From Xiphophorus maculatus (Eukaryota; Chordata; Actinopteri; Cyprinodontiformes; Poeciliidae), in the NCBI RefSeq assembly GCF_002775205.1, contig NC_036456.1:19861976-19925975 (forward strand): a stretch of DNA of 64,000 nt. The letters run 5' to 3'. The notes below the pieces were generated by a model, which saw only the letters and a program-made list of their open reading frames with translations, was not told where the DNA came from and made no database searches. Below are positions 4,101-56,034 of the stretch, piece by piece; the stretch's first letter is position 1; every line of letters begins with the position of its first letter. The position numbers and the translations under genes were made by a program.

Positions 4101-5278
4101 TAAATCTGTAATTTTGCAAATGAAATGATTTTTAAATGTTGTACTGAATTATTACAATGCTTAAAAACCAACAAACATTCATACAACATTATTTTTACTA
4201 TAAATAATTACTTTATTAAATAACTTTCCACTCAATAGGTTATTTCTTCTGTTTTTGTCCTAAACTTTCCGTCATTATAACTAATGGGGTCCCACATTTT
4301 CTCTCCATTCTTTCTTTTCAGTCATGTCTCCATCCAGTTTTAGCTAAAACCTATTGCTATTTTGAACATATAGATTAATTGACATAAGTCCAACTTGATG
4401 TTTTTTTAAAAAAAGGTTTTACTGGGGAAAAAAAAAACAAAAAGAGGGAAGATCTTGTGTTTGGCCTAATGGGGGCACTACAACTGTATACAAAACACAT
4501 GAAAGATTTTTTTAAATTTAAGATTAAACAAGAAAAAAAGAACTGTGTGCCTCAACAATCACATCAAGTTCATGACACCAAATTAAAAACAACCAAAATG
4601 TGATTAAAATATTTCCTGGAAGAAATCAAAATAATTTGAAACTCCACCGTGTGTAAAACAGTAACTTCTTGCTTTGTATTTTCTGTCTGCTGTCTTTTCT
4701 GTGCGACATTTTAAATTAAAGTCAGAATACAAAACAAAAATTTGAACAAAAATTCTTCAACTTACTGCTGTCCCGCTGCGGGGCTGTCTGCTGCTTCGAC
4801 GCCATCGCACTCCTCCTCTTGTCTTGTCTCCTCTCCTTCTGCAGCATCAGGTCCTCCATCTCCGTTCTGGTGGCATTCTGCTACATCTTTATCTCTCTGA
4901 TCTTTCACCTCAGGTTGCTGTAACTCGTGCGTTGCTATAAAAAAAATACAATTAAAATCTGTGAGTACAATATTTCGGCCACACTTCCGGTTTTTAAACA
5001 CACTCAGTTAGCAAGACGAGTGTTTTACTTTGTGCAGATATGGAGGTGTTTCCCTGTGCAGATTCAGACTCTGTTGGTGTTCCATCTCCCTGCTCCTCCT
5101 CTCTCATCCTGGAGCGCTTGGCTGATGGTGGAAGCCCGTCTTCTGGGGTCTCCTGCTCTACCTGCTCAGACTGACAGAGTAGAGGCGGGACCTGTTGAGG
5201 GGGCTCGCCGTCTGCTTCAGAGTCCTGCCCACCAGCCGCCACGCCTCCGCTCTCTCCACCTCCAGCTGAATCGGACAT
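1158..5278 (-). CDS. wrap53: WRAP53/TCAB1, 5' half (gene continues off the left edge)
   Basis: This is the N-terminal part of telomerase Cajal body protein 1, a WD40 protein that binds CAB-box scaRNAs and telomerase RNA and brings them to Cajal bodies. Five coding exons on the minus strand are seen at 5278-5029, 4934-4766, 4012-3917, 3655-3547 and 1246-1158. All joins are GT-AG and keep phase; together they give 713 nt. Exons 1-2 encode an acidic, low-complexity N-terminus starting [12 protein letters not shown]. Exon 3 ends in [19 protein letters not shown], exon 4 reads [20 protein letters not shown], and exon 5 reads [17 protein letters not shown]. These match the start of the WD40 propeller as I know it from human WRAP53. 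The remaining repeats must lie left of position 1. The start at 5278 follows a 5' UTR exon that begins near 5424. In mammals the gene overlaps TP53 antisense; no p53 sequence is visible here. Confidence 0.9.
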
Positions 5279-36991: not shown

Positions 36992-37670
36992 TGTGTACAA
37001 TTATTAGGCAAGTCTTACTTTTGAGGGTTATTTTTATTAATCCCCAAATATAGTGCTCTCGGTTAATCCAACATATTAATAAACCTCAGGCATGAATGTT
37101 TTGGAAAGTAAAAGTGAGGTTCGTGTGTCTTAGGAGATTCTGCACAATTATTGAGCAACTATTAATGTGAAGAAATATTATGCAACTAAATGAATAACAC
37201 ACTTTGCCCATCTAAAAAAAACTCCCCACAAGTTTTCAATTGAGTTCAGGTCAGGTTTGGAAGAGGGACATGTTTTAAGTTTCTCATCTTTAATGCAAAA
37301 AGAGTATTTAGATGTATGTGATGGAGCGTCATCCAGGATAAAAATCATTATTTTATTGAAAAATCCAGACTTCTTCCTGTTCCACTGCTTGAAGAAAGCG
37401 TGTTCTACAATCTGGCAGCATGTTTGGAAGTTAATATCAACCTCAGAAGGTAAAACCACCAGCCCATACCAGGAGCCTGCCTCCACCTTGCTGGTGTCTG
37501 ACTACAGGTGGCGCTCTGTGCCTGTTACTGATCCATACATCTGGTCCAACAAGTCGCTCAATTCTTCCATAAAACTTCTGAAAAATATCCATCTTCAGAT
37601 ATCACAGTTCTACTTTAGTCAAAACTGTACAGAGATCTTAAATACACATTTCTCACATTCAGAGAAATAA
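36992..37670 (-). mobile_element. Degenerate Tc1/mariner-type transposon
   Basis: The left end carries GTACAATTATTAGGCAAGTC, a terminal sequence I know from a mariner-like family spread through fish genomes. The minus frame 37486-37178 encodes a C-terminal transposase remnant. DDAPSHTSK (the second catalytic Asp block) is followed by KPDLNSIENLWG (the third acidic residue, Glu), with a spacing slightly shorter than the usual D34E. Upstream, HQQGGGRLLVWA-like residues remain in a shifted frame. Frame breaks and lost N-terminal parts make it inactive. The right end was not found; transposon-like sequence may run on towards 38000. It lies in the first intron of gigyf1. Confidence 0.75.
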
Positions 37671-43344: not shown

Positions 43345-44240
43345 TTATAGGTGGCTGTACTCAGAACATGTTGTTCCTCTCAGCCCTGGGGCACATTCAG
43401 CTGCATAAGAGATGTAAAAGTAACCATGATTCATCTCACACATGGAGGTAACTGACCCCGCCTGGACTGTGGTGGCGCAGGACCCCAGGAGGTCGTTCTG
43501 TCGGTCCAAAAAGTGATAGTCTTCGTCCCAAACCTCAAACTTTCTGCAACAGCTCCACTGTTCCCGAGGGGAACTCCTCGTTCCACTGTGGGCTGTCGTC
43601 GTCGGATATGACTGAGGTCTGGAACGTCTGGTTTCCCAGGAAAACTTTCATGAAGGAGTCAGTTTTTGTGAACACGTCTCCCCACAGGCCGCTGGCAGAC
43701 TTGACCGTGTCGGTGAGGTGGGCCAGCCTTCGCTGCAGTGATGTGACTGGTGGTGCACACAGATCGTAGGAGCTGGGTGTGGAACCTTGAAAGCACTTGT
43801 TAGAGCAGATTTTCTTCACGCCGTTTTGTCTCTCGCTCGCCTCTTTTACTCCAGTTTTTTTTCGCCGGTTCGGTGACCAGCTGGTAGAGAGGGACCAGGC
43901 TGTGGTTGATGATACCTGGTTTCATTTTCAAGCCTTTCTTCCACTTTTCAAAGCCGGTGAAAGAGAAGAGAGGGTCAGTTTTATTATCTGTGCTGCCTCC
44001 GACCATTTTAGTGACTCTGTGGTTGAACTTCCTTTTAAAACTTCTCAGGTTTGGGTGCTTTTTGGCAGCCTTGTGGCAGCAAGTCACTTGGGCTTTTATT
44101 TCAGGGCTGTTGACAGCTACTGGTGCAGCCGCCTCAACATTCAGACAGTTTCTCACCTCCATTTGAAGCCAGAAACCTCATGTAGCTCATCTCACTCGTG
44201 TTGTTGTACTGTGATGTTAGGCTCAAAACAGACCGGAGAA
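43345..44240 (-). pseudogene. Perforin-1-like pseudogene fragment (end of MACPF, EGF-like, C2)
   Basis: The minus strand encodes the C-terminal part of a perforin-1-like pore-forming immune effector, in three pieces. Frame 1 (to about 43855) matches the end of the MACPF region: KMVGG, an FTGFEKWKKGLKMKPG block and SLVPLYQLV. Frame 2 (about 43855-43540) holds a short Cys pair (CSNKC) and the start of the C2 domain (GLWGDVFTKTDSFMKVF, ending SPQWNEEF). Frame 3 (about 43540-43345) continues the C2 domain (FEVWDED, then NDLLGSC) and ends with a TAA. The breaks are single-base shifts, one in a run of eight A at about 43860 and one at an AAAG at about 43537. Most of the MACPF domain and the signal peptide are missing upstream. 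It is most likely a dead partial copy; sequencing errors at the A-run are possible but would not explain the missing 5' part. Confidence 0.8.
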
Positions 44241-46141
44241 ACTTTGCATTGAGTGGAGGGTTTTTTTCTCACATTGAAACTGAAGTGGAAAGAAAACAGT
44301 TTATTAGATAAATCCTTAAATGTGCTATTATATATAATATGTCTGTTAAGTTAAGATATTGGCTAGAGTTACACTGTGAATAAATTTAAAATCTTTCTTT
44401 AATCATGTAAATTCAAGATTTATTGTGCAAAATCTTCTTAGAATTAAAAAACAGCTAAAGATAGAACGTTTAGTTTTGGATTATTTTTACCCTAAAGATT
44501 AAGTTTAACCTTGTTGCAGTACAACTTAAAGTTTAAACCTACATTAAAAGATATTTCAAACGATTTTCAAATCTACTGCTTGTTTTTCACAGCAGTTTAC
44601 TCTAGTTTAAACTCACATTGGGTCCCTGACAAAACTCATCAGCCTAAACCAGTAAAAAAAAAAAAAAAGTTTCAGCTGGACACCGAGCAAGTCATGCAAC
44701 GTTTGAATGAGTCATTTTAAAAGACTTTGGCCTGTTGTTGTTTGGAGTCTGTAAGGGTTTCAATGGAAAATATCAAACAGATGTAGACCCAAAACAACTA
44801 ATTAGATGAAAAACAGATTTAAAATTCTAAAGAAAGGTATTATCAGGTAAGATCACCAGTTAAGTAAGTTACTCAACTGCTTTAATCTAGTTTAACTTTA
44901 GACATGTCTGTCTTTACTCTGAACTTTGTTATGAGGCAACTGAAAGTGTTTGTAGCTGCACATAAAGTCTCTCTGGTGAAAATCAAAGAGGAGTGAGAAA
45001 TTATAATATTCTCCCAATATGGTATTATTTCTGTTTTTTGATGTTTCCCTCATGTGCCAACTATATACACACCATATGTTTTGCTTAAAGACTAAGTTTT
45101 TCAGTATCTGGTTGGACACATAAACCAACATCTTCAGCAGAGGAACTCTGTTATCAATTTCTCTGTAAGAAGAAACCAACTGGGGAAAACATCATGGAGC
45201 TCAAGCATCACAACACAGGAACTGTCTGGTTAGGTTTTGTTTTATGCGGAAGGTGTGATCAGCTCAGGCTTTTGCAGAACTTCTTATCACAGTAAACGAT
45301 TCCTCACCCTGATAGCAAGAGGAAGTCTTTTGGTGTCTGACTGGACGTAAACAGAACCAACATCTTCAGCAGAGGAGACGTTTGATCACAGTTTTGTCTG
45401 TCAGAGGAAAGTCATGGGGAAGAACATTATGGAGCTCAGGCATCACAGCAGGGGAACCGTCTGGTTAGATTTTAAATAGTGCATGCTAAAGGTGTGATCG
45501 GCTCGTGTTTTTGCACGACTTCTTAGCAAAGCTTAGCAGATTCATTCATAGAGCATCTTAAACACCCACAAGACCAAAGTGTTGTCAACAGAACAGCCGT
45601 CACATGATGCACATAACAAAATCAGAAGGACCTAAAAATAAGTTAAAACAGCCCTGTCAAAAAATAATAATAATAATAATAAAATAAAACAGCTAGTAAG
45701 GTAAAAATACAATAATTACAAATGTTTCTTAACAGTTTCTGCTCAGAGGAGACTTCTGAAGGCAATTGGCTGAACTGAATTGTTAATCAATCACGAAAAA
45801 AACCACCAAAAAATACTTCTACATTGAATGTTAAGTTTAAAATATAAAGTTGTATAAAGGATGTCCATGAGTGCACAGTTTTATTGCCTTACAGTGAGCT
45901 CAGTGATGCTTGGCTGCACTGTTATTGTTGGACCAGATAAGTTCTAACCAGCCAATAAACCAGCTCTAAAGCTCCAGGGATTTGCATACCATGTCTGCGT
46001 CTAACTTCCATTACATTCCACTAGACTGAGAGCAGCAGTAAACGCAGGAAAAATCATTAAACTGAGCGGCGGTCATGGTGGAATTTATTAATGGAAGACA
46101 TTCCAAGCCCCGTTTGCTCCAGTTTCTACTCCGGTGTGAGG
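44241..46141. other. Intergenic stretch with a degenerate tandem duplication
   Basis: No gene recognised. It includes the two related ~200-bp units at 45107-45545, an AAT microsatellite at about 45663-45682, and probably the promoter of the first ENDOD1-like gene (CCAAT at about 45953, TTTGCATAC at about 45981). Confidence 0.5.
45107..45545. repeat. Tandem pair of ~200-bp related units
   Basis: Unit one (45107-45300) and unit two (45336-45545) share in the same order ACCAACATCTTCAGCAGAGG, a GGGGAA..AACAT.ATGGAGCTCA block, CATCACA, GGAAC.GTCTGGTTAG, GGTGTGATC.GCTC and a CTTCTTA end. Divergence is roughly a fifth of positions by eye. Neither unit has a long open frame. The function is unknown; this may be an old duplication of a repeat or of a non-coding exon. 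Confidence 0.6.
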
Positions 46142-47571
46142 ATGCGTTTGTTTTGTGCCTACATCCTGTCCTGCTCTGTTTTGATGGTGAGCTCTGCCGT
46201 GTCCAACAGCTTCAGAGACTGCAGCCATTTTTTCTACATGCAAACGCCTCCAGCAGGGATCCGAGGGACGAGCCTGAAGAAGATCTGCCAGAAGTACGCC
46301 GACAAACTGCGCTACGCCACCCTGTACGACAGCAGTCGGCGTCTCCCACTGTATTCAGCTTACATTTTTAAGAAGTCTGATGGGAAGGGGAGGGCAGACA
46401 CACCGTGGATGTACGAGCCTCAGGTAGAGTAAGCAGAACAATGTGGGATTCATTTGAAAAGTTTTGAAAAAACCTCTTAAGTCATAAAATAATGACTTCT
46501 CCCACCCTGACAGTGATCATGTTTTTGTTATTGGTGGAAATTGTTGTAAAGATTATTCAGAGTTTTTATTGCATAAGATCCAACGGATAAAGTAGTAGCT
46601 ATGATGACACGCAATCTTGACCTACACAATTCCTGTACCCAAATGATTACCTATTTGACCAATGTCAGTAACTAATTGATCAAAATTAAATCTAATTCTT
46701 GAAAATAAGAAATAATAAATTATCTTAGATAAAACTGTCTAAATTAGTGCTTTATAAAGTTGGGGAAAGGACCCTGATTGTGACTGCAAATCAACAAGTA
46801 TGATGTTTGTGTTACATAGTGTGTTTATGAAACAGTAGCATAGTATTTATTCACTCCAAAAATAATCAACTGGATTAAAATTGAGAAGAAAATAAATTTT
46901 TTAATTATGTTTCACTTGGGACTATGTTTTCTCTCTCTAACCTACAGCTGGTGTCTGAATCAGAGAGCAGCAACATGAAGGTGCTTCCTCTGACTGCAGA
47001 CATTTCTCCTCTCATTGAGGAGAGCCAGATCGTTTTGGAGGACTACGTCGATGCTGTAGAATACAGACGAGGCACGCTGAACCCTGACCAGCACCAAGCA
47101 GATCCAGACGACAAATCCTCTACCTACACCCTCACCAACGTCGTTCCTCTGATCACTGATTTCCTGGGAACCTCCTGGAGTTCTTACCTAGACACCGTCC
47201 GCCGCCGCCTAAACAACTTCTGCCATGGTAAGTCTTACATCGTGACTGGAGTAACTTTTTCAGGAGGCACCATCAAGCGTGACAACAAGGACCGTCTTTC
47301 AATACCAAAACACGTATGGATGGGATACTGCTGCCCAAAGTTTGACCGTAACTCACCCTACGAGGTGAGGTTCATGTTCCCCAGTTATGGCGGCTACGCC
47401 CTGAATGAACAGACGGGCAACAATGTGGTGGAGGTGCCATTAAAGAAACTGGAGAGTTTCCTGAAGAGCCAAACAGACTTTGAAAAAGACATGGCTATTT
47501 TCTACAAGGGCTGTGTGTCAGAAAACACCATCAAAAAGAAGCGAAGAGACCTGCAGAGGCTGAATAACTGA
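46142..47571 (+). CDS. ENDOD1-like secreted protein, copy 1
   Basis: Two exons, 46142-46423 and 46948-47571 (GT-AG intron after ...YEPQ), encode 301 residues of the DNA/RNA non-specific endonuclease fold, endonuclease domain-containing 1 type. A signal peptide (RLFCAYILSCSVLMVSSAVS) precedes the C..FF....PP and KKICQKY..KLRYATLYD blocks typical of the fish family, then FKKSDG and PWMYEPQ. In exon 2 the place of the nuclease DRGH motif reads RRGT (residues 134-137), followed by LNPDQHQ and YTLTNVVP. The catalytic histidine is therefore replaced by Thr, so nuclease activity is doubtful. ATG 46142 was chosen because it puts the hydrophobic stretch at the N-terminus; an in-frame ATG at 46091 would add 17 residues. 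Poly(A) signals lie at 47802 and 47809. This is the most divergent of the three copies, with a basic tail KKKRRDLQRLNN. Confidence 0.85.
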
Positions 47572-48534
47572 GAATGTTTCAAATATACTTGAACCAGAAC
47601 AGTGTTAAAATATAAGGCTAACGTACTTTGATTAATGTTATGGTTTTATCAATGTTAGAAAAAGAAGACTGTTTAAAAGTTAAATTCTTTCCCAACTTGG
47701 CCTTAGAGGCTGTATTTAGATTGTGTCTGCATTAAGTACTGTCTGTGGGATGTCTTGTGCTTTGTATGCAATGACTCTTAAAAAAAAACAAGAGGGAAAA
47801 GAATAAACAATAAAATCAATGTTAAAAGGATAGATTCTCCAACTTTTATTGTCACTCCCTGCAGTTTAACAAAACTGAAAGTAACAATTGTTTTTCCACT
47901 TTTCACATAGAATCCACCAGGTTCTGTGATGTGATTACAGAACCTGATCCCAATGCTTCAGATGCAACATTACTGTTAATTCCTGTATAGCTGATGTAAC
48001 ATACAACTGACATTAGGACACTTCTGTGCATTAAAGTGGAAGATTATATTCTACTTTTTTATTTTTTGGTGAGTTATGGTGGGCTAGGACTTTATCAATT
48101 AGACAATTATTTTCTACCCATGTTTTCTCCAAAAAATCCTATTATTTTATATATTACTGGATTGCGTATAACTACAGCCTATTGCTTGAAATATCAAGCT
48201 TGATTAAACTTGCGTCTTTAAAAGAAAGCTTGACTGCATCACTAGATAGACTTTAGGTCTTTCTATCGTCCTTTCCCACCAGTAGAAGATAAACGTGAAC
48301 ACTGGCTGTTGAATGTTTGACTTTAGTGGGTGGAACTGCAGCACTGCAAGTACAGCATTGCTTTGCATACTGTCTCCAGATTACACAGAAGACTTCACAC
48401 CAGGTGTGAAACCTGCGTTAGCTTTTCCACTGAACACCACAGGACACACTGAGACACATTCAGCTATTGACTGAAACACTGAACATTCAGCAGCTTTTGG
48501 ACTTGGATTAGAACCTTCGGATCACATTTGGACG
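47572..48534. other. Spacer between ENDOD1-like copies 1 and 2
   Basis: It holds the 3' UTR and poly(A) signals of copy 1 and, from about 48290, the presumed promoter and 5' UTR of copy 2. A TTTGCATAC element at about 48362 matches one before copy 1. No other gene is seen. Confidence 0.5.
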
Positions 48535-49556
48535 ATGGCGTTTTGGCTACAGATGGGTTTCCTGATGGCCAGCCTAACGTCTTCAGTGGTGAGAGGGCGA
48601 GTAGAAAATGAGCTGTCTCCAGAGTGCAGAGAATTCCTCTTCATGAGAACCCCACCGAAAGGCCTGGAGCTCCCCTCCGTCAAGTACATCTGTCAGTTTC
48701 ACAACAAGAAGCCGCGCTACGTGACTCTGTACAGCACGGAGGATCACATTCCCATCTACTCCGCCTACACCTTTAAGCACTCGGATGGGGAGACGTGTGT
48801 GGATGTTCCCTGGATGTATGAGCCACAGGTAAGAAAACTAAAACACTGAATCAAGAAGCCACTATTTTGCTTTTTGAAAATGTTTAAAACATGCCACTTG
48901 ACATGTATTCATTTTAAGCTTACTGTCTTCTTTGCTTATTCTTCTTTTTTTTTTTTTTTACACAGTTGTCCACTTCTTTTGACACAGACGAGATGCAGCC
49001 CTTTCCACGCGGTTACATGCACATGAACTTTGAAGACGCCCAAGCGATTCTGGACGACTACACCAACGCCATACACTACGAGCGAGGGACCCTGAACCCG
49101 GACGAGCATCAGAACGAACTCGACGACAAGGCCTCCACTTACACCCTCACCAACGTCGTCCCCTTGGTGCCCGACTTCAACGACAGGATCTGGAATAAAC
49201 AGGAGCACATCGTCCGCAAACGGCTTAACAACTACTGCCGCGGGAAGGCCTACATAGTGACCGGGATCACCAAGTCAGGGAAGATGATCCGCAGGGAAAA
49301 CATGAACCGTATCGCAGTCCCCAACTACCTGTGGTCGGCTTACTGCTGCGTGGACTATGACCACAACACTCCTTATACGGAGCGATACAAGTTCCCGTCT
49401 TTTGCTCACTACGCCCTCAATGAGGACGAGAACAACGAGATAGTAGAGACCTCCGTCCCAAAGCTCCAGGAGTTTCTCAAAAAGACGTTTGCGAACCAGA
49501 ACTTTCAGATTTTTGAAGGAGACTGCAATCCCCAGTCCTCCATGAAAAGTGATTAA
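48535..49556 (+). CDS. ENDOD1-like secreted protein, copy 2
   Basis: Two exons, 48535-48828 and 48966-49556, with a short 137-bp intron at the same position as in copies 1 and 3, give 294 residues. N-terminal signal peptide MAFWLQMGFLMASLTSSVV; then CREFLFMRTPPKG, VKYICQFHNKKPRYVTLYS, YSAYTFKHSDG and PWMYEPQ. The motif in the DRGH position reads ERGT (residues 137-140), followed by LNPDEHQ and DDKASTYTLTNVVP, so the general-base histidine is again missing. Further family blocks are RKRLNNYCRGKAYIVTG and VPNYLWSAYCC. Poly(A) signals lie at 49587-49596. It looks like a secreted, probably non-catalytic member. The function of such proteins is not established; human ENDOD1 has been linked to innate immunity and DNA repair. 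Confidence 0.85.
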
Positions 49557-51869
49557 GAAAAATATTTTGAAATGATTGTAAATTTGAATAAATAAAGCTC
49601 CACTGTATCCAAATCTCTTAATATACTTTGACAGCTTACCAGACTAAAATATAAGCAAATAAACAGAATTTAATCATGAACTACATCAATATGTGTGTTT
49701 GTTCTACACACATATTAATTCTTGATATAATATGTGAAAGTGGTTGCAGAACTTTCATTTTCTAATTAAAGTTCCTCAAGAAAAAACAAGGAAGAAAATG
49801 ACCGACAAGACAAGTTAGGAGTTATGTTCATGGAGTAGATCAAACCATTCTGAATCATAACTCAATAAGGTTCCTCAAATTCTCACTTAATAAAAACAGA
49901 GCATAAAAGTGAAGTATGAGATCTGTTCTACTTTTACACTTCTACAGCTCATTAATCAGCAAAATGACACCTACCAGAGAAGGATAATAAAAAGAAATAT
50001 TTAAGCATGCATCATAAAAGAAGAGCAAACCTCTCTGACCTATAAAGAAAACTTTACTAAGCATTTGTCTTACCTGTTTGAGTGTCTACCTGTTTTCAAA
50101 GGTTATTTTCTTGTCATGTTCAGAACTTAGAATTTTTTAGCATGATTTTATCTAATTAACAATATACAGTAACTGCATCGGTACGTTACGTTGTAATAAA
50201 CCGTTCAATCAGCCTGTCTGTCTTTCTTTTCAAACATGAAGTAAAACAAAACCACTGTCAGTTGTCCCTGCTGGATGTGGATTTGTGTGAATAGATGTCG
50301 GTAGCTTGTATTGGAAAAACACTTTTCCATTACAGCAGGTTTGTCGCTTTTGAAAACCAGTTTGATAAAAGCTAGTTCCGTAAACGTTTTCTACCTTTCA
50401 AGAGCAAAGGTCAACAGTTTGGTTGCGAAAGCTCAAGGAGTTCTGATTTATTGATCTCATCTCATTCATGCTGGTAATATTGAAATATTGGATCAGGAAA
50501 TAATGTTTTCAACTGCAGACAACATTGGTCAAAGACGCTGCATAGAACTCGGAGCAATATATAACTCCACGATGAGGCATATGAACAATAAACCAACAAA
50601 AATTTAATAAATAAAATAGAAAAACAGCTAGAAGCTGAGAAACCTTTTGTTTTTTCAGTGCTAATTAAATCTCTCATGAATATTAAAGTTTTTCAACCAT
50701 TATTTTAAAATTTAATTAAAATAAACCTGGTTGTAAACATGGCTTTTTCAGAATTTTGAAAAATGTCTATTTTATTTACAAAATTTATGGTTCTACATAA
50801 AGTTCCTGTTATGCCATTTAGATCATTAATCCATCATCAATACAGATGAATGAATCTTAAACACATCACAATGTTCATGTTGTAAGACTAGAAATATTGC
50901 ATAATAAGGTCTTATCAAAAAGGTTACAACTATAGATATGAGATTAAACCTGTGAAATGTTGGAAATTCAATACACTTAACCTTAAAAAAAGACATCTAC
51001 TCTAAACACAGGTATCCTTAGGTCAACATTATGACTTAGTTGTGTTGTTGCTGTTTTTATCCATTGATTTTTGTTGAACCTCTTGATAAAGTGTTATATG
51101 AAATTTGAGTGAAGGTCTTAAAAGGAGTTAATACAGATTGGAGAGTGAAAGTCATCAAGCTGCTGAACAGTAAAGTCAGAAGTATATGAAACCTATAATT
51201 TGTAAAAGCATTAGCAGAATTTCCAGCTCAGTCAAATGGCTGTTCAATTCCAGCATAAAATGGAAGAAGACGTTTGTCCATTTAGGTGAAGTCTTGCTAA
51301 TCATGTGATGTAACAAGAAATACCTATTTTGAGCAATGGTTTTATATTCTCACAACTAGCTTTCCTTCTTTTAAACAGGTCTTCATCTATAAAAACTATT
51401 CAGAAAGGTTACATATTTTTGTGCACTGGTTGCATTTTTTCCAGTTTGTCAGTATTAATTTTCTCTGAGGATGTTGTTCCATCGCTCACGTGAAGATCGA
51501 TTACACTTTAATTCCATTTAGGTTTCTAGTGAAATTCAACTCAAATGCAAATGCTGGACTGAACCCATTATTACACTTCTATGCATGCTACTATGTCATG
51601 TCAGCAATGTGGAAAAGAGGCATGATAAAACGCTCTCCGTGTCTGATAACATTCATTGCCTTTATACAGCTACACTTGTGGCAATTTGAATATATGGAAA
51701 GACTTCACAATGGGAGATCAGTTGAAAGCACAGATGAGCCAGGAAGGGAAATGTTGAGTTTGATAGAGCTGAAACCGAGGCTGTACCTTTTAGACGTAGA
51801 TGACTTGCAGCCTTTTTCACCAGGAGGATCACAAAGATCTACAGGAGCAGAGAAAAACAAGCTGCAGAG
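49557..51869. other. Spacer between ENDOD1-like copies 2 and 3
   Basis: AT-rich sequence without recognised genes or transposons. A 127-codon frame (51490-51873) ends by overlapping the start codon of copy 3 and has no family resemblance; it is most likely 5' flank or UTR. Confidence 0.5.
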
Positions 51870-53042
51870 ATGAGAGCGACATCTGCAAACCGTGCCGTTT
51901 CCCTGACAGCTGTTGTGATGGTGCTAACCTCGGTGGTGCTGCAGGGAGTCCAAGCAGGAGTAGTAAGTGACTTCAGCCATGCAGAGCGCTGCAAGGACTC
52001 CCTGTATATGGGAACCCCACCGAGAGGTTATCTCAGCAACGCCTTTAAGAAGATCTGCCAGAGGTACGAGGATAAACCTCGCTACGCCACAGTGTATGAC
52101 CCCCGCAGACACATCCCCATCTTCTCTGCGTACACGTTCAAGAAGTCAGACGGGGAGAAGAAGGTGGACTTCCCCTGGATGTTTGAGCCTCAGGTGAGTT
52201 TAATTCATTCTACAACAAACTGCTGTTTTAGTACTTAAATTTGAGATAGTTTTTAATTTAAATGTGATTGTAGATCCTTTAGCAGGGTATCGTTTGCATT
52301 TTGTAGACACTTAATGGTCATGAAGAACTATTACTTAGGCCAGCTTGAAATAAGCTGCCTTGCTGAGTACAGGATAAGTCTCAATGACAGAGTGTGACTA
52401 ATACCACATCTACAAATCTATCTTTCTGAGTTTGTGGTTTAATTTTTCTTGTGTCAACAGTTGGCATCAGAGAAGAGTAGCAGCAACATGGAGCCTTTCC
52501 CCCAGTCTACAAGTATGCACATGAACTTCGAGGACACCCAAGCTGTCCTCGAAGATTACGCCGACGTTGTTCAGTACGAACGCGGACAACTAAACCCCGA
52601 CGAGCACCAAGCAGACCCTCTGGACAAAGCCTCCACCTACAGCTTGACAAACGTGGTTCCTCAGATAAGGGAGTTCAACCTGGGCCCTTGGGCCGAACAC
52701 CAGGACATCATCCGCAAACGACTCAATAACTACTGCAGAGGAAAGGCCTACGTTATCACCGGGGTCACCACCTCTGGACACACGATCCGCCGCAACAACA
52801 TGGACCGGGTGGCCGTGCCGGAGTACATGTGGTCGGCTTACTGCTGCACGGAGTTTGACCAGAACGCACCGTACTTTGTGCGCTACAAGTTCCCTGTGTT
52901 TGGGGCATACGGGCTGAACGACCGCGTCAACAACCAGATGGTGGAGGTTCCCCTGAAGAACCTGGAGAAGTTCCTCAAAGGGAGGATGGACGTGGACAAG
53001 AACTTCCAGATATTCTATAACGACTGTGTTCCAGATAACTAA
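51870..53042 (+). CDS. ENDOD1-like secreted protein, copy 3
   Basis: Two exons, 51870-52193 and 52461-53042, encode 301 residues. The signal peptide region is AVSLTAVVMVLTSVVLQGVQAG. Conserved blocks: CKDSLYMGTPPRG, KKICQRYEDKPRYATVYD, FSAYTFKKSDG and PWMFEPQ. Exon 2 has MNFEDTQAVLEDYADVVQYE followed by RGQ (149-151) and LNPDEHQ. The DRGH histidine is replaced by Gln, unlike the Thr in the other two copies. Then come DKASTYSLTNVVPQ, RKRLNNYCRGKAYVITG and VPEYMWSAYCC. It is closest to copy 2 by eye. AATAAA lies at 53235. Three adjacent copies with the same intron position mean local tandem duplication. Confidence 0.85.
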
Positions 53043-53622: not shown

Positions 53623-54348
53623 TCATATTCCCTTCGTAGCAGTCTGAGGCAAGCAGAGGTTATAAAACGAGGACTGATCTAGAGATGAGACTCGTTTCCA
53701 AGCCACCCACCCTCTCTTCTGCAGCTCTGTCTTCTCCAGTTGTCTCCCATAGTAGTGAGGATCAACAACAAGCAAATAGCTCCCTTTGTCCCCAGTACAA
53801 ACTCCTAATATGCCTTTAGAGGAATTGTCCCTGTCTCCTCCCATCATGACAGGAGAACCGTGCTTCTCAAAGTGTTGATGAAGCTCCTCTGCTGCAACCT
53901 GCTCCAGCTCTGCCCCTCCACCTCTAACATGCACCACCTTACAGGGAACATCACAGAAGTAGTCCAGCACCAGGGAGGCTTCAAATGTCCCTATCCACTC
54001 CTTGGAGCCTGAGAAGGAGCCTGGCTTGTCCCCCATTGTCACCAAGGCTTGCTGGATCTGTGGTAGGCTTGGAGCGATTCTGTTCTGGTTTTGAACTGGG
54101 GACCTGTTCAGGTAAATCCACGAAGCCATGGTTTGAATGGTACGGTATCCACAGCCCCAGCCTCTGTCATCCTGTCCATCACAGCCATAATGGAAGTACA
54201 GATAGTCTCCTTTAACCAGGGAACATTTCGCAGGGTCCGTCAGTGGATCAGGGAGCTCAGTGTGTACATTCTTTAATAAAGTTTCTATCTTCTGACAAAT
54301 CTCCTCCTTTTCACAGGCACCCCAATCTATATTTTCGTCAGAAGCCAT
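53623..54348 (-). CDS. ufsp1: UFM1-specific protease 1
   Basis: A cysteine protease of peptidase family C78 that processes the UFM1 precursor and can remove UFM1 from targets. A single coding exon of 241 residues starts MASDENIDWG. The catalytic Cys lies in DDRGWGCGYRTIQ (Cys66), and the Asp/His pair in VVDPHYYG (Asp196, His198). The whole mature fold is present, unlike the N-terminally shortened human annotation. The same frame is open up to an ATG at 54453, adding 35 mostly hydrophobic residues. A donor (CCG|GTGAGTG, last exon base 54415) and an acceptor (TTTGACTCAG, exon from 54359) would remove that extension, but the intron would be only 55 nt, short for a vertebrate. I therefore prefer the start at 54348. 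The gene is tail to tail with ENDOD1-like copy 3 and head to head with pop7. Confidence 0.92.
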   Translation of the reverse strand: MASDENIDWGACEKEEICQKIETLLKNVHTELPDPLTDPAKCSLVKGDYLYFHYGCDGQDDRGWGCGYRTIQTMASWIYLNRSPVQNQNRIAPSLPQIQQALVTMGDKPGSFSGSKEWIGTFEASLVLDYFCDVPCKVVHVRGGGAELEQVAAEELHQHFEKHGSPVMMGGDRDNSSKGILGVCTGDKGSYLLVVDPHYYGRQLEKTELQKRGWVAWKRVSSLDQSSFYNLCLPQTATKGI

Positions 54349-54415
54349 TGATATTGTCTCTGAGTCAAATATAAAAAAAATGTAGTCGAAAGACAAGCAA
54401 ATAAAAACACTCACC

Positions 54416-54530
54416 GGTCCAAACAGTTTTACTTCCGGGTTAGGATGGAACACTTCCTGTTGTGTACAGGAAAAAATATGATGGCGGCCACATAAAGCAA
54501 CGTTTTAGCTTGATTCTGTTCTCTGAAGGT
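54416..54530. promoter_or_regulatory. Bidirectional ufsp1/pop7 promoter
   Basis: About 110 bases separate the ufsp1 leader from the pop7 first exon. They hold ETS-like sites (ACTTCCGGGTT, CACTTCCTG) and ATGATGGCGGCCACAT, a YY1-like initiator region on the plus strand. The pop7 non-coding exon appears to end at TCTGAAG|GTAATT (54529). The start sites are inferred. Confidence 0.55.
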
Positions 54531-55578
54531 AATTATGCTCTTACTATTGACAATTTATCGGTACGAAACTCAAAAATACAACGCTTAGGTAGTGAGTCAA
54601 TGTGGTTTAATTTAATTTGAGCCGTTAGTTCATCTCGATTGAGATATTTTGTATTTTCAGTTGGACGCTGGTTTCTTTTCTAACAGAAATTATACAATTA
54701 ACGAGATAATATAAGACCTCCATTAACTGAACATGCAACTATCAGATAGGTGAAAAACAAGCAAAACGTAGCGCTTTTGCTGCTTCTCTTCTCCTATGTA
54801 TACGGGTAAAGTGGGTACGCATTATTCTCATCCGGCCAAATTATTCTAGCTGTTTGAAATAATCTGTTCAACCTCCATAACTCACGAACAAATTAATTTT
54901 CCAGCAAGCCTTTAACTGTGTTTATGCTTCACATCAAGGATAACAGATTCTGTAGATTTGGGAACATTTGATTTTTATTTGCCAAAGTTACGTGGGGGGA
55001 ACCAAATATTTCAGCTGCTTGAGATAATCTGTTCCCCCTCCATGAACAGATTCATCTCCCAGCTAGTCTTTAACTAGGTTTATTCCTCTCCTCGGTTCCC
55101 CTTACATAGTTTATATATGTAATAAAAAATTAGGAAAAAAAAGATTTATTTTTTAGCGTTTGACATCCTGATCTAGAGGAAAATTGGATCATTTAAATTT
55201 TTGTATTTTATATTCAGTATTCACTGTTTTGTTTGCTTGTTGGTGTTTCAGTTGCTTCAATTTTATACTTTATTTTAAAATAGTTGCCTCCAAATTTTAT
55301 CAATAAGTATACTCTTACTGCAAAATCTTAAATACTAACCACAGTTTTGTGTCATTATAACAGATGTATGTGAAATTGTAGCAGATACTTTAGTTTGGCA
55401 ACTGTTACTAGTTTCCTTCTTACTCAAGGTTTATTTTTGTATTTTAAATGACACCCACTTTTCAAATAAGTTTTTTTGAACTAATTTGTTTTGATAATTG
55501 GTTTATGTTTTAATTAGCTTGCCACATGTTCTTTCCATTAGCCTTCTTCTTCTGGATCTTCACTGTTCATTCAGAAAC

Positions 55579-56034
55579 ATGACTGAACCACGCAACCCCG
55601 GGATGTCCTCCGTCCCCCAGAGTAACCCCTCCCACACGGAGTCCAGCTCCCAAGCCGTAGAGATGGATCCAGTGGAGTACACCCTGAGGAAGCGTCTCCC
55701 CCGGAAACTTCCCAAGAGGCGGAACGACGTCTACGTTAACATGAAGACCGACTTCCGGGCTCAGCTGGCGCGCTGTCAGAAGCTGCTGGACGGTGGCGGT
55801 CACAGGGAGATCTGCGTCCACGGGTTGGGCCTCGCCATCAACAGAGCCATCAACATCGCCCTGCAGCTGCAGGCCAGCAGTCAGGGCGCTCTGCAGCTGG
55901 CGGCCAACACCTCCACAGTGGAGCTCATCGACGACCTGGAGCCGGAAGATCCCGACGAGGCGGGGGAGCCCATGACACGTACACGCAATAACTCAGCCAT
56001 TCATATCAAAGTTTTCTATCCTGATCCCCAGTGA
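55579..56034 (+). CDS. pop7: Ribonuclease P/MRP protein subunit POP7 (Rpp20)
   Basis: An Alba-family subunit of RNase P and RNase MRP, which pairs with Rpp25 on the P3 domain of the RNA. One coding exon, 151 residues (human 140). Diagnostic blocks: MDPVEYTLRKRLPRKLPKRR, DVYVNMKTDFRAQLARCQKL, HGLGLAINRAINIALQLQ, LAANTSTVELIDDLEPE and RTRNNSAIHIKVF at the C-terminus. The upstream non-coding exon ends near 54529; the acceptor is near 55541 (CTTTCCATTAG) or 55573 (CATTCAG). The frame stays open upstream of 55579 to an ATG at 55498, but that lies across the acceptor and is intronic. AATAAA at 56531. The intron of about 1 kb shows no other gene. Confidence 0.95.
   Translation: MTEPRNPGMSSVPQSNPSHTESSSQAVEMDPVEYTLRKRLPRKLPKRRNDVYVNMKTDFRAQLARCQKLLDGGGHREICVHGLGLAINRAINIALQLQASSQGALQLAANTSTVELIDDLEPEDPDEAGEPMTRTRNNSAIHIKVFYPDPQ

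Follow-up and report, generated by a model that had tools for sequence, protein, structure and literature searches.

A tandem trio of secreted-type ENDOD1-like genes in Xiphophorus maculatus lacks the catalytic histidine and probably encodes retained pseudonucleases

In the DNA/RNA non-specific endonuclease family, the histidine of the DRGH motif is the general base. For human EndoG, mutations of His-141 leave less than 0.01% of activity and the change of Asn-172 to Ala leaves about 0.1% (PMC2653514). The membrane-anchored protein ENDOD1 resembles the genes described here in having a signal peptide followed by one DNA/RNA non-specific endonuclease-type domain (PMC9126970, PMC7332293). Here we analyzed a stretch of 64,000 nucleotides from Xiphophorus maculatus (NC_036456.1, positions 19,861,976 to 19,925,975 of the forward strand; hereafter the window), which carries three adjacent ENDOD1-like genes of a secreted type, termed copies 1 to 3. 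A reading made from the sequence alone had proposed that this whole array turned into secreted pseudonucleases. Inspection of the three genes reveals no histidine at the DRGH position in any copy, with RRGT in copy 1, ERGT in copy 2 and ERGQ in copy 3. The trio occupies 46142-47571 (copy 1), 48535-49556 (copy 2) and 51870-53042 (copy 3), all on the plus strand, with the following parts:

46142..46423, plus strand: copy 1 exon 1, with a signal-like N-terminus and a TPPxG block, ending in ...YEPQ
46948..47571, plus strand: copy 1 exon 2, the PF01223 core, with Thr for the catalytic His, Leu for EndoG Asn-172 and Leu for NucA Glu-163
47074..47076, plus strand: copy 1 codon at the catalytic-His position, ACG (Thr137)
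48535..48828, plus strand: copy 2 exon 1
48966..49556, plus strand: copy 2 exon 2, the PF01223 core, with Thr for His and with Asn and Glu kept
49089..49091, plus strand: copy 2 codon at the catalytic-His position, ACC (Thr140)
51870..52193, plus strand: copy 3 exon 1
52461..53042, plus strand: copy 3 exon 2, the PF01223 core, with Gln for His and Gln for NucA Glu-163
52587..52589, plus strand: copy 3 codon at the catalytic-His position, CAA (Gln151)

Each gene has two exons separated by one phase-0 intron after ...EPQ (CAG/GT...AG), and the spliced frames encode proteins of 301, 294 and 301 residues for copies 1, 2 and 3, respectively, with no internal stop codon and with a hydrophobic, signal-like stretch at each N-terminus. 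The sequence-only reading had placed the array from the first ATG to the last stop exactly, and its coordinates and motifs were equally accurate; the intron position that it described as common to the three genes is indeed shared, and six Cys are kept. The open reading frames (ORFs) of the second exons match PF01223 with E-values of 1.2e-11, 4.1e-17 and 2.3e-18 and scores of 45.2, 63.0 and 67.1 bits for copies 1, 2 and 3, against a curated cut-off of 23.

To place the DRGH block, eight family proteins of the home genome (the trio and paralogs named here by contig: one on C11, one on C2, one on C10 and two on C23) were combined into a profile, which was searched against PDB chains. NucA, EndoG, EXOG and Serratia nuclease were recovered, 15 sequences with E-values up to 3.9e-5, and the alignments of five of these (two NucA, fly CG8862 and two EndoG) were inspected. 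In all five, the y-e-R-G-h-L block of the profile lies over the DRGH block without gaps, with small gaps beside it; the aligned EndoG chains read DRGA at this block and the NucA chains YARGH. Because the alignment is ungapped here, the Thr, Thr and Gln of the trio occupy the place of the general-base histidine, as had been claimed. The trio proteins are PF01223 members by descent, whose nuclease function is predicted to be absent without the DRGH histidine. None of the eight aligned proteins has an NCBIfam match.

The remaining catalytic residues give a mixed pattern across the trio. The Mg-ligand Asn (equivalent to NucA Asn-155 and EndoG Asn-163) is kept in all eight aligned genes, the trio included. 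The equivalent of EndoG Asn-172 is Asn in seven of the eight and Leu in copy 1, and the equivalent of NucA Glu-163, at Trp+4, is Glu in six, Leu in copy 1 and Gln in copy 3. Active-site change is greatest in copy 1 (Leu/Leu) and least in copy 2 (Asn/Glu), with copy 3 reading Asn/Gln. Such further losses occur in two of four His-less and none of four His-bearing aligned genes (Fisher p 0.43), which offers only a hint that they are tied to loss of the histidine. An Arg at Trp+8 is present in the trio and in the C11 and C2 copies and absent from C10 and both C23 copies. We take the NucA residue numbers to be Asn-155, Glu-163 and Arg-167; the positions themselves come from the alignments.

A second histidine, in the NPDxHQ block, is found without exception in the eight aligned genes, four of which also carry the catalytic histidine, and it aligns across one inserted residue to the NHR His of the EndoG and CG8862 chains. 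Because it is both invariant among the aligned genes and present in EndoG, it is no special substitute in the trio; on this alignment it is a family trait and not a replacement base. The sequence-only reading had offered another conserved His in the catalytic place as grounds for its own rejection, and it withstands that check, the nearby His being family-wide and found in EndoG too.

We next compared the trio with its paralogs. The PF01223 search of the home genome (704 Mb, 101 contigs) gave 13 matches from 15 candidates, a lower bound, which correspond to 11 genes: the trio, two on C23, and one each on C11, C10, C2, C18, C12 and C14 (at 23.52 Mb). Histidine occupies the DRGH position in seven of these 11, with SRGH and TRGH on C23, ERGH on C11, SCGH on C10 and DRGH on C18, C14 and C12, where the C18 motif exon, ~1.8 kb ahead of the exon that matched, is assigned only from its position and reading frame. 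The four genes without histidine are the trio and the C2 copy, which lies outside the array and reads ERGQ. With a further relative on C3, the family comprises 12 genes, of which the eight aligned genes were used for the tree and residue counts; C12 (EndoG type), C18 (incomplete gene model), the C14 copy (which looks frame-shifted) and C3 (motif exon uncertain) were left out.

The C11 paralog provides the contrast with His-bearing relatives that had been suggested, and within the same genome. It is 47-59% identical to the trio (59% to copy 3), has its intron in the same place, and carries ERGH with the Asn, Asn and Glu all present; it is predicted to be active. With seven of 11 genes keeping the histidine, this close copy among them, and none of the three trio genes doing so, the loss in the trio appears to exceed chance. 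The trio, C11 and C2 make up a secreted ENDOD1-like subfamily that shares the phase-0 intron (EPQ/L), six Cys and the NPDxHQ block and forms one clade.

Phylogenetic analysis of the eight aligned genes places the trio, C11 and C2 together with support of 100/100, and pairs copy 2 with the C2 copy (98/97). Monophyly of the trio is rejected by the approximately unbiased (AU) test (p-AU 0.0146), and the idea that the array changed as one unit falls on these two results. A clade of copies 1 and 2, a grouping picked after the tree was seen, is marginally rejected (p-AU 0.048), so the two Thr replacements may be independent. A branch with support of 65/95, found in 68% of 200 bootstrap trees, sets the four His-less genes apart; a DNA tree agrees, with C11 on the side of the outgroup (78.5/77), and LG+G4 protein trees differ, with copy 1 branching first at supports of 35-57. 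The data call for a minimum of three changes of state among His, Gln and Thr. One loss followed by further change and two separate losses both fit, and the earlier argument that the presence of Thr and Gln speaks against one frozen mutation is not supported as made, since a single initial loss followed by change remains compatible with the 65/95 branch. Because the close paralog C11 reads ERGH, loss of the histidine would most simply have occurred inside this one subfamily.

To understand whether the genes are still maintained, the sequences were examined for constraint. The ratio of nonsynonymous to synonymous change (dN/dS; NG86 method) is 0.28, 0.17 and 0.26 for the three trio pairs, at near-saturated dS of 1.4-2.2; dS by this method is incomputable for 14 of the 28 pairs of aligned genes, and the maximum-likelihood estimate yields dS values of 14-26. 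In a neutral simulation (substitutions only, starting from copy 3, 2000 frames per divergence level), nine frames remained free of stops at 0.2 changes per site and one at 0.3, whereas none survived at either 0.5 or 0.7. The six Cys show no variation across the eight aligned genes. Ungapped repeats of at least 30 bases that link the copies are confined to exons, extending two bases over at one junction, fitting old duplicates under selection. Identity to C11 within the active-site region (147-193) is 26/47, 26/47 and 32/47 for copies 1, 2 and 3 and elsewhere is 108/211, 110/211 and 129/212; the region as a whole has not eroded faster. The trio thereby shows the pattern of a pseudoenzyme under selection, that is, catalytic loss with frame and fold residues kept and low dN/dS, and selection appears still to keep these genes. 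The earlier argument that undamaged frames speak against decay is borne out by the stop-free frames, the low dN/dS and a simulation in which neutral drift closes nearly all frames.

We therefore consider it likely that the trio encodes secreted-type ENDOD1-like pseudonucleases that cut at negligible rates and are each kept for binding. Without the general-base histidine the attacking water would not be activated, leaving negligible cutting of nucleic acid, and each copy would be retained for binding something instead. Net charge without the first 25 residues is about +6 for copy 1, -10 for copy 2 and -2 for copy 3, compared with +10 and +12 for the two C23 copies and -3 for C11. For copy 1, which has a basic C-terminal tail, binding of nucleic acid or of some other polyanion could persist; for copies 2 and 3, binding of a protein, or competition with a paralog that is active, would be more plausible. 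Because charges vary widely and fail to separate dead from live copies, diverged ligands would be favoured over a single common role. The better-founded part of this proposal, as judged from the residues, is that normal catalysis is lost, and the naming of any specific ligand is a guess that we regard as doubtful. Of the original pseudonuclease interpretation, the histidine loss, open frames, signal-like N-termini and six Cys stand and the joint change of the array does not.

Several observations weigh against this proposal. Chief among them is the nuclease activity in vitro that PMC7332293, citing Lyu et al. 2016, attributes to the ENDOD1 domain of flounder; that protein could itself carry RGQ or RGT. 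The H141A mutant of EndoG retains a trace of activity, with its maximum at 20 mM Mg (PMC2653514). Copy 2 retains each checked catalytic residue except the histidine, and because of this its weak activity is possible. The near saturation of dS makes dN/dS only indicative ("constrained on average"). At -3, the His-bearing C11 protein does not exceed copy 3 (-2) in basicity, and charge gives no support for a common ligand. Finally, an AlphaFold model from the trio alignment is unusable (mean predicted local distance difference test score 39.6).

The flounder and H141A results also favour an alternative that we judge improbable, namely that the trio proteins are still nucleases using another base (the NPDxHQ His, or a metal-bound water with the Gln or Thr), such that loss of the DRGH histidine only slows or redirects cutting. 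The Mg-ligand Asn, kept in all eight aligned genes, and the Glu kept in copy 2 agree with this. However, the NPDxHQ His coexists with the catalytic His in four aligned genes and in EndoG chains, and if human EndoG has it, it would not have rescued H141A; moreover, the Glu is also lost in copies 1 and 3, and the second Asn in copy 1. The notion that the trio consists of early pseudogenes, having recently lost function on the way to decay, could draw on the catalytic-site substitutions and on the C14 copy that looks frame-shifted. It is highly improbable given three open frames of 294-301 codons with splice sites and six invariant Cys kept, and dN/dS of 0.17-0.28 at near-saturated dS where neutral drift would leave many stops.

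A more serious contender, which we hold to be possible though tentative, is that histidine loss is an old vertebrate ENDOD1 trait, the membrane type also being without a working site and only the 'endonuclease' label being wrong. ERGQ is also the motif of the C2 copy, which stands away from the array, and ENDOD1 is termed an 'atypical nuclease' in PMC9126970. The membrane-type ENDOD1 relative on C3 (C3:2204600-2210300), found by a query with a putative human ENDOD1 sequence and the best scorer against it in a nine-sequence comparison, has no PF01223 match in its two readable exons and no recognisable TLTN block where one is expected. Its C-terminal part is linked to the family by profile comparison (hhalign E 4.8e-5, probability 68) and is followed by an ORF whose moderately hydrophobic segment reaches 1.58 in its best 19-mer. 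The nuclease domain of this gene seems far more degenerate than those of the trio, but its DRGH-equivalent exon is uncertain and the gene enters no count. Human ENDOD1 probably reads QRGQ at the motif; if this is right, histidine loss is wider than this array. A putative human ENDOD1 peptide was absent from the paper main texts searched. Against an old trait, C11 (ERGH) belongs to the trio's own subfamily, the outgroup genes on C23 and C10 keep the histidine, and the histidine was most simply present at the origin of the subfamily. A broader version of our preferred pseudonuclease proposal, which we offer as unlikely speculation, is that this secreted fish family turned more than once into non-cutting binders, with the trio of the gigyf1-ufsp1 interval and C2 losing the histidine and membrane ENDOD1 separately losing most of the site, to act in immunity as decoys or regulators on ligands or on active paralogs (C11, C23).

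Two paralogs show changes of their own. The C10 gene (C10:12023500-12033000, minus strand) reads SCGH, with the histidine kept and the DRGH Arg replaced by Cys, and has a further Cys downstream within that loop as well as four sequons for N-glycosylation; judged by its motif, this is an independent active-site change. In the C14 copy (C14:23515500-23525400, nucleotides 4851-4904), which shares its contig with the window, the DRGH block and the TLTN block are separated by 53 bases and read in different frames, a pattern that looks like decay or assembly error.

Within the window, the trio is flanked on the left by an exon encoding a C2 domain (43345-43921, minus strand; also delimited as 43535-43918), whose C-terminal part we take to be perforin-1-like, only the C2 domain having been tested. 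On the right lie a UFSP1-type Peptidase_C78 gene (53623-54501, minus) and, beyond it, a POP7/Rpp20 gene (55498-56031, plus). Upstream of copy 1, a 49-base direct repeat occurs twice at 45244-45531 (80% identical, 239 bases apart), and an ORF at 37178-37501 (minus) is presumably the end of a Tc1/mariner-type transposase. The C11 copy is flanked by ORFs that we presume to be neuroligin-2-like and KDM6B-like; no neighbours in common with the window were found. Comparison of window ORFs of at least 30 residues with ~70 kb around each of the C2 and C11 copies returned, at a tblastn threshold of E 1e-4, only the ENDOD1-like genes (on both strands) and one 23-residue match, and block duplication as the source of dispersal is not supported by these flanks. 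Searches of viral contigs and prokaryote genomes gave 39 and 99 pattern matches, respectively, with no confirmed relatives, and three phage records match weakly.

The ENDOD1-like genes of fish carry the annotation of endonucleases and feature in expression studies of immunity; in turbot, for example, bacterial challenge induces endod1 in both head kidney and liver (PMC11659141). If several ENDOD1-like proteins are dead enzymes, the interpretation of such expression changes. Among the papers searched, none combines ENDOD1 with DRGH.

Nuclease paralogs kept without catalysis are already known in another family, the inactive RNase II-like pseudonucleases of fungi, which in contrast to the trio belong to a different nuclease family and are described as RNA-binding proteins (PMC8097288). 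Membrane-anchored ENDOD1 has three C-terminal transmembrane motifs (PMC9126970), whereas the trio proteins end shortly after the domain and, by hydropathy only, show no C-terminal transmembrane segment (best 19-residue values after residue 40 of 1.02, 0.26 and 0.14). EndoG, EXOG, NucA and Serratia nuclease share with the trio the PF01223 profile and the Mg-ligand Asn, and EndoG chains also the second His; unlike them, the trio lacks the general-base His, copies 1 and 3 the Glu, and copy 1 the second Asn. The C11 paralog, of the same subfamily and intron place, differs in its intact ERGH, Asn, Asn and Glu. One secreted-type scaffold thus offers a clean natural comparison of ERGH (C11), ERGQ (copy 3 and C2) and RRGT or ERGT (copies 1 and 2), which makes ENDOD1-type cutting directly testable.

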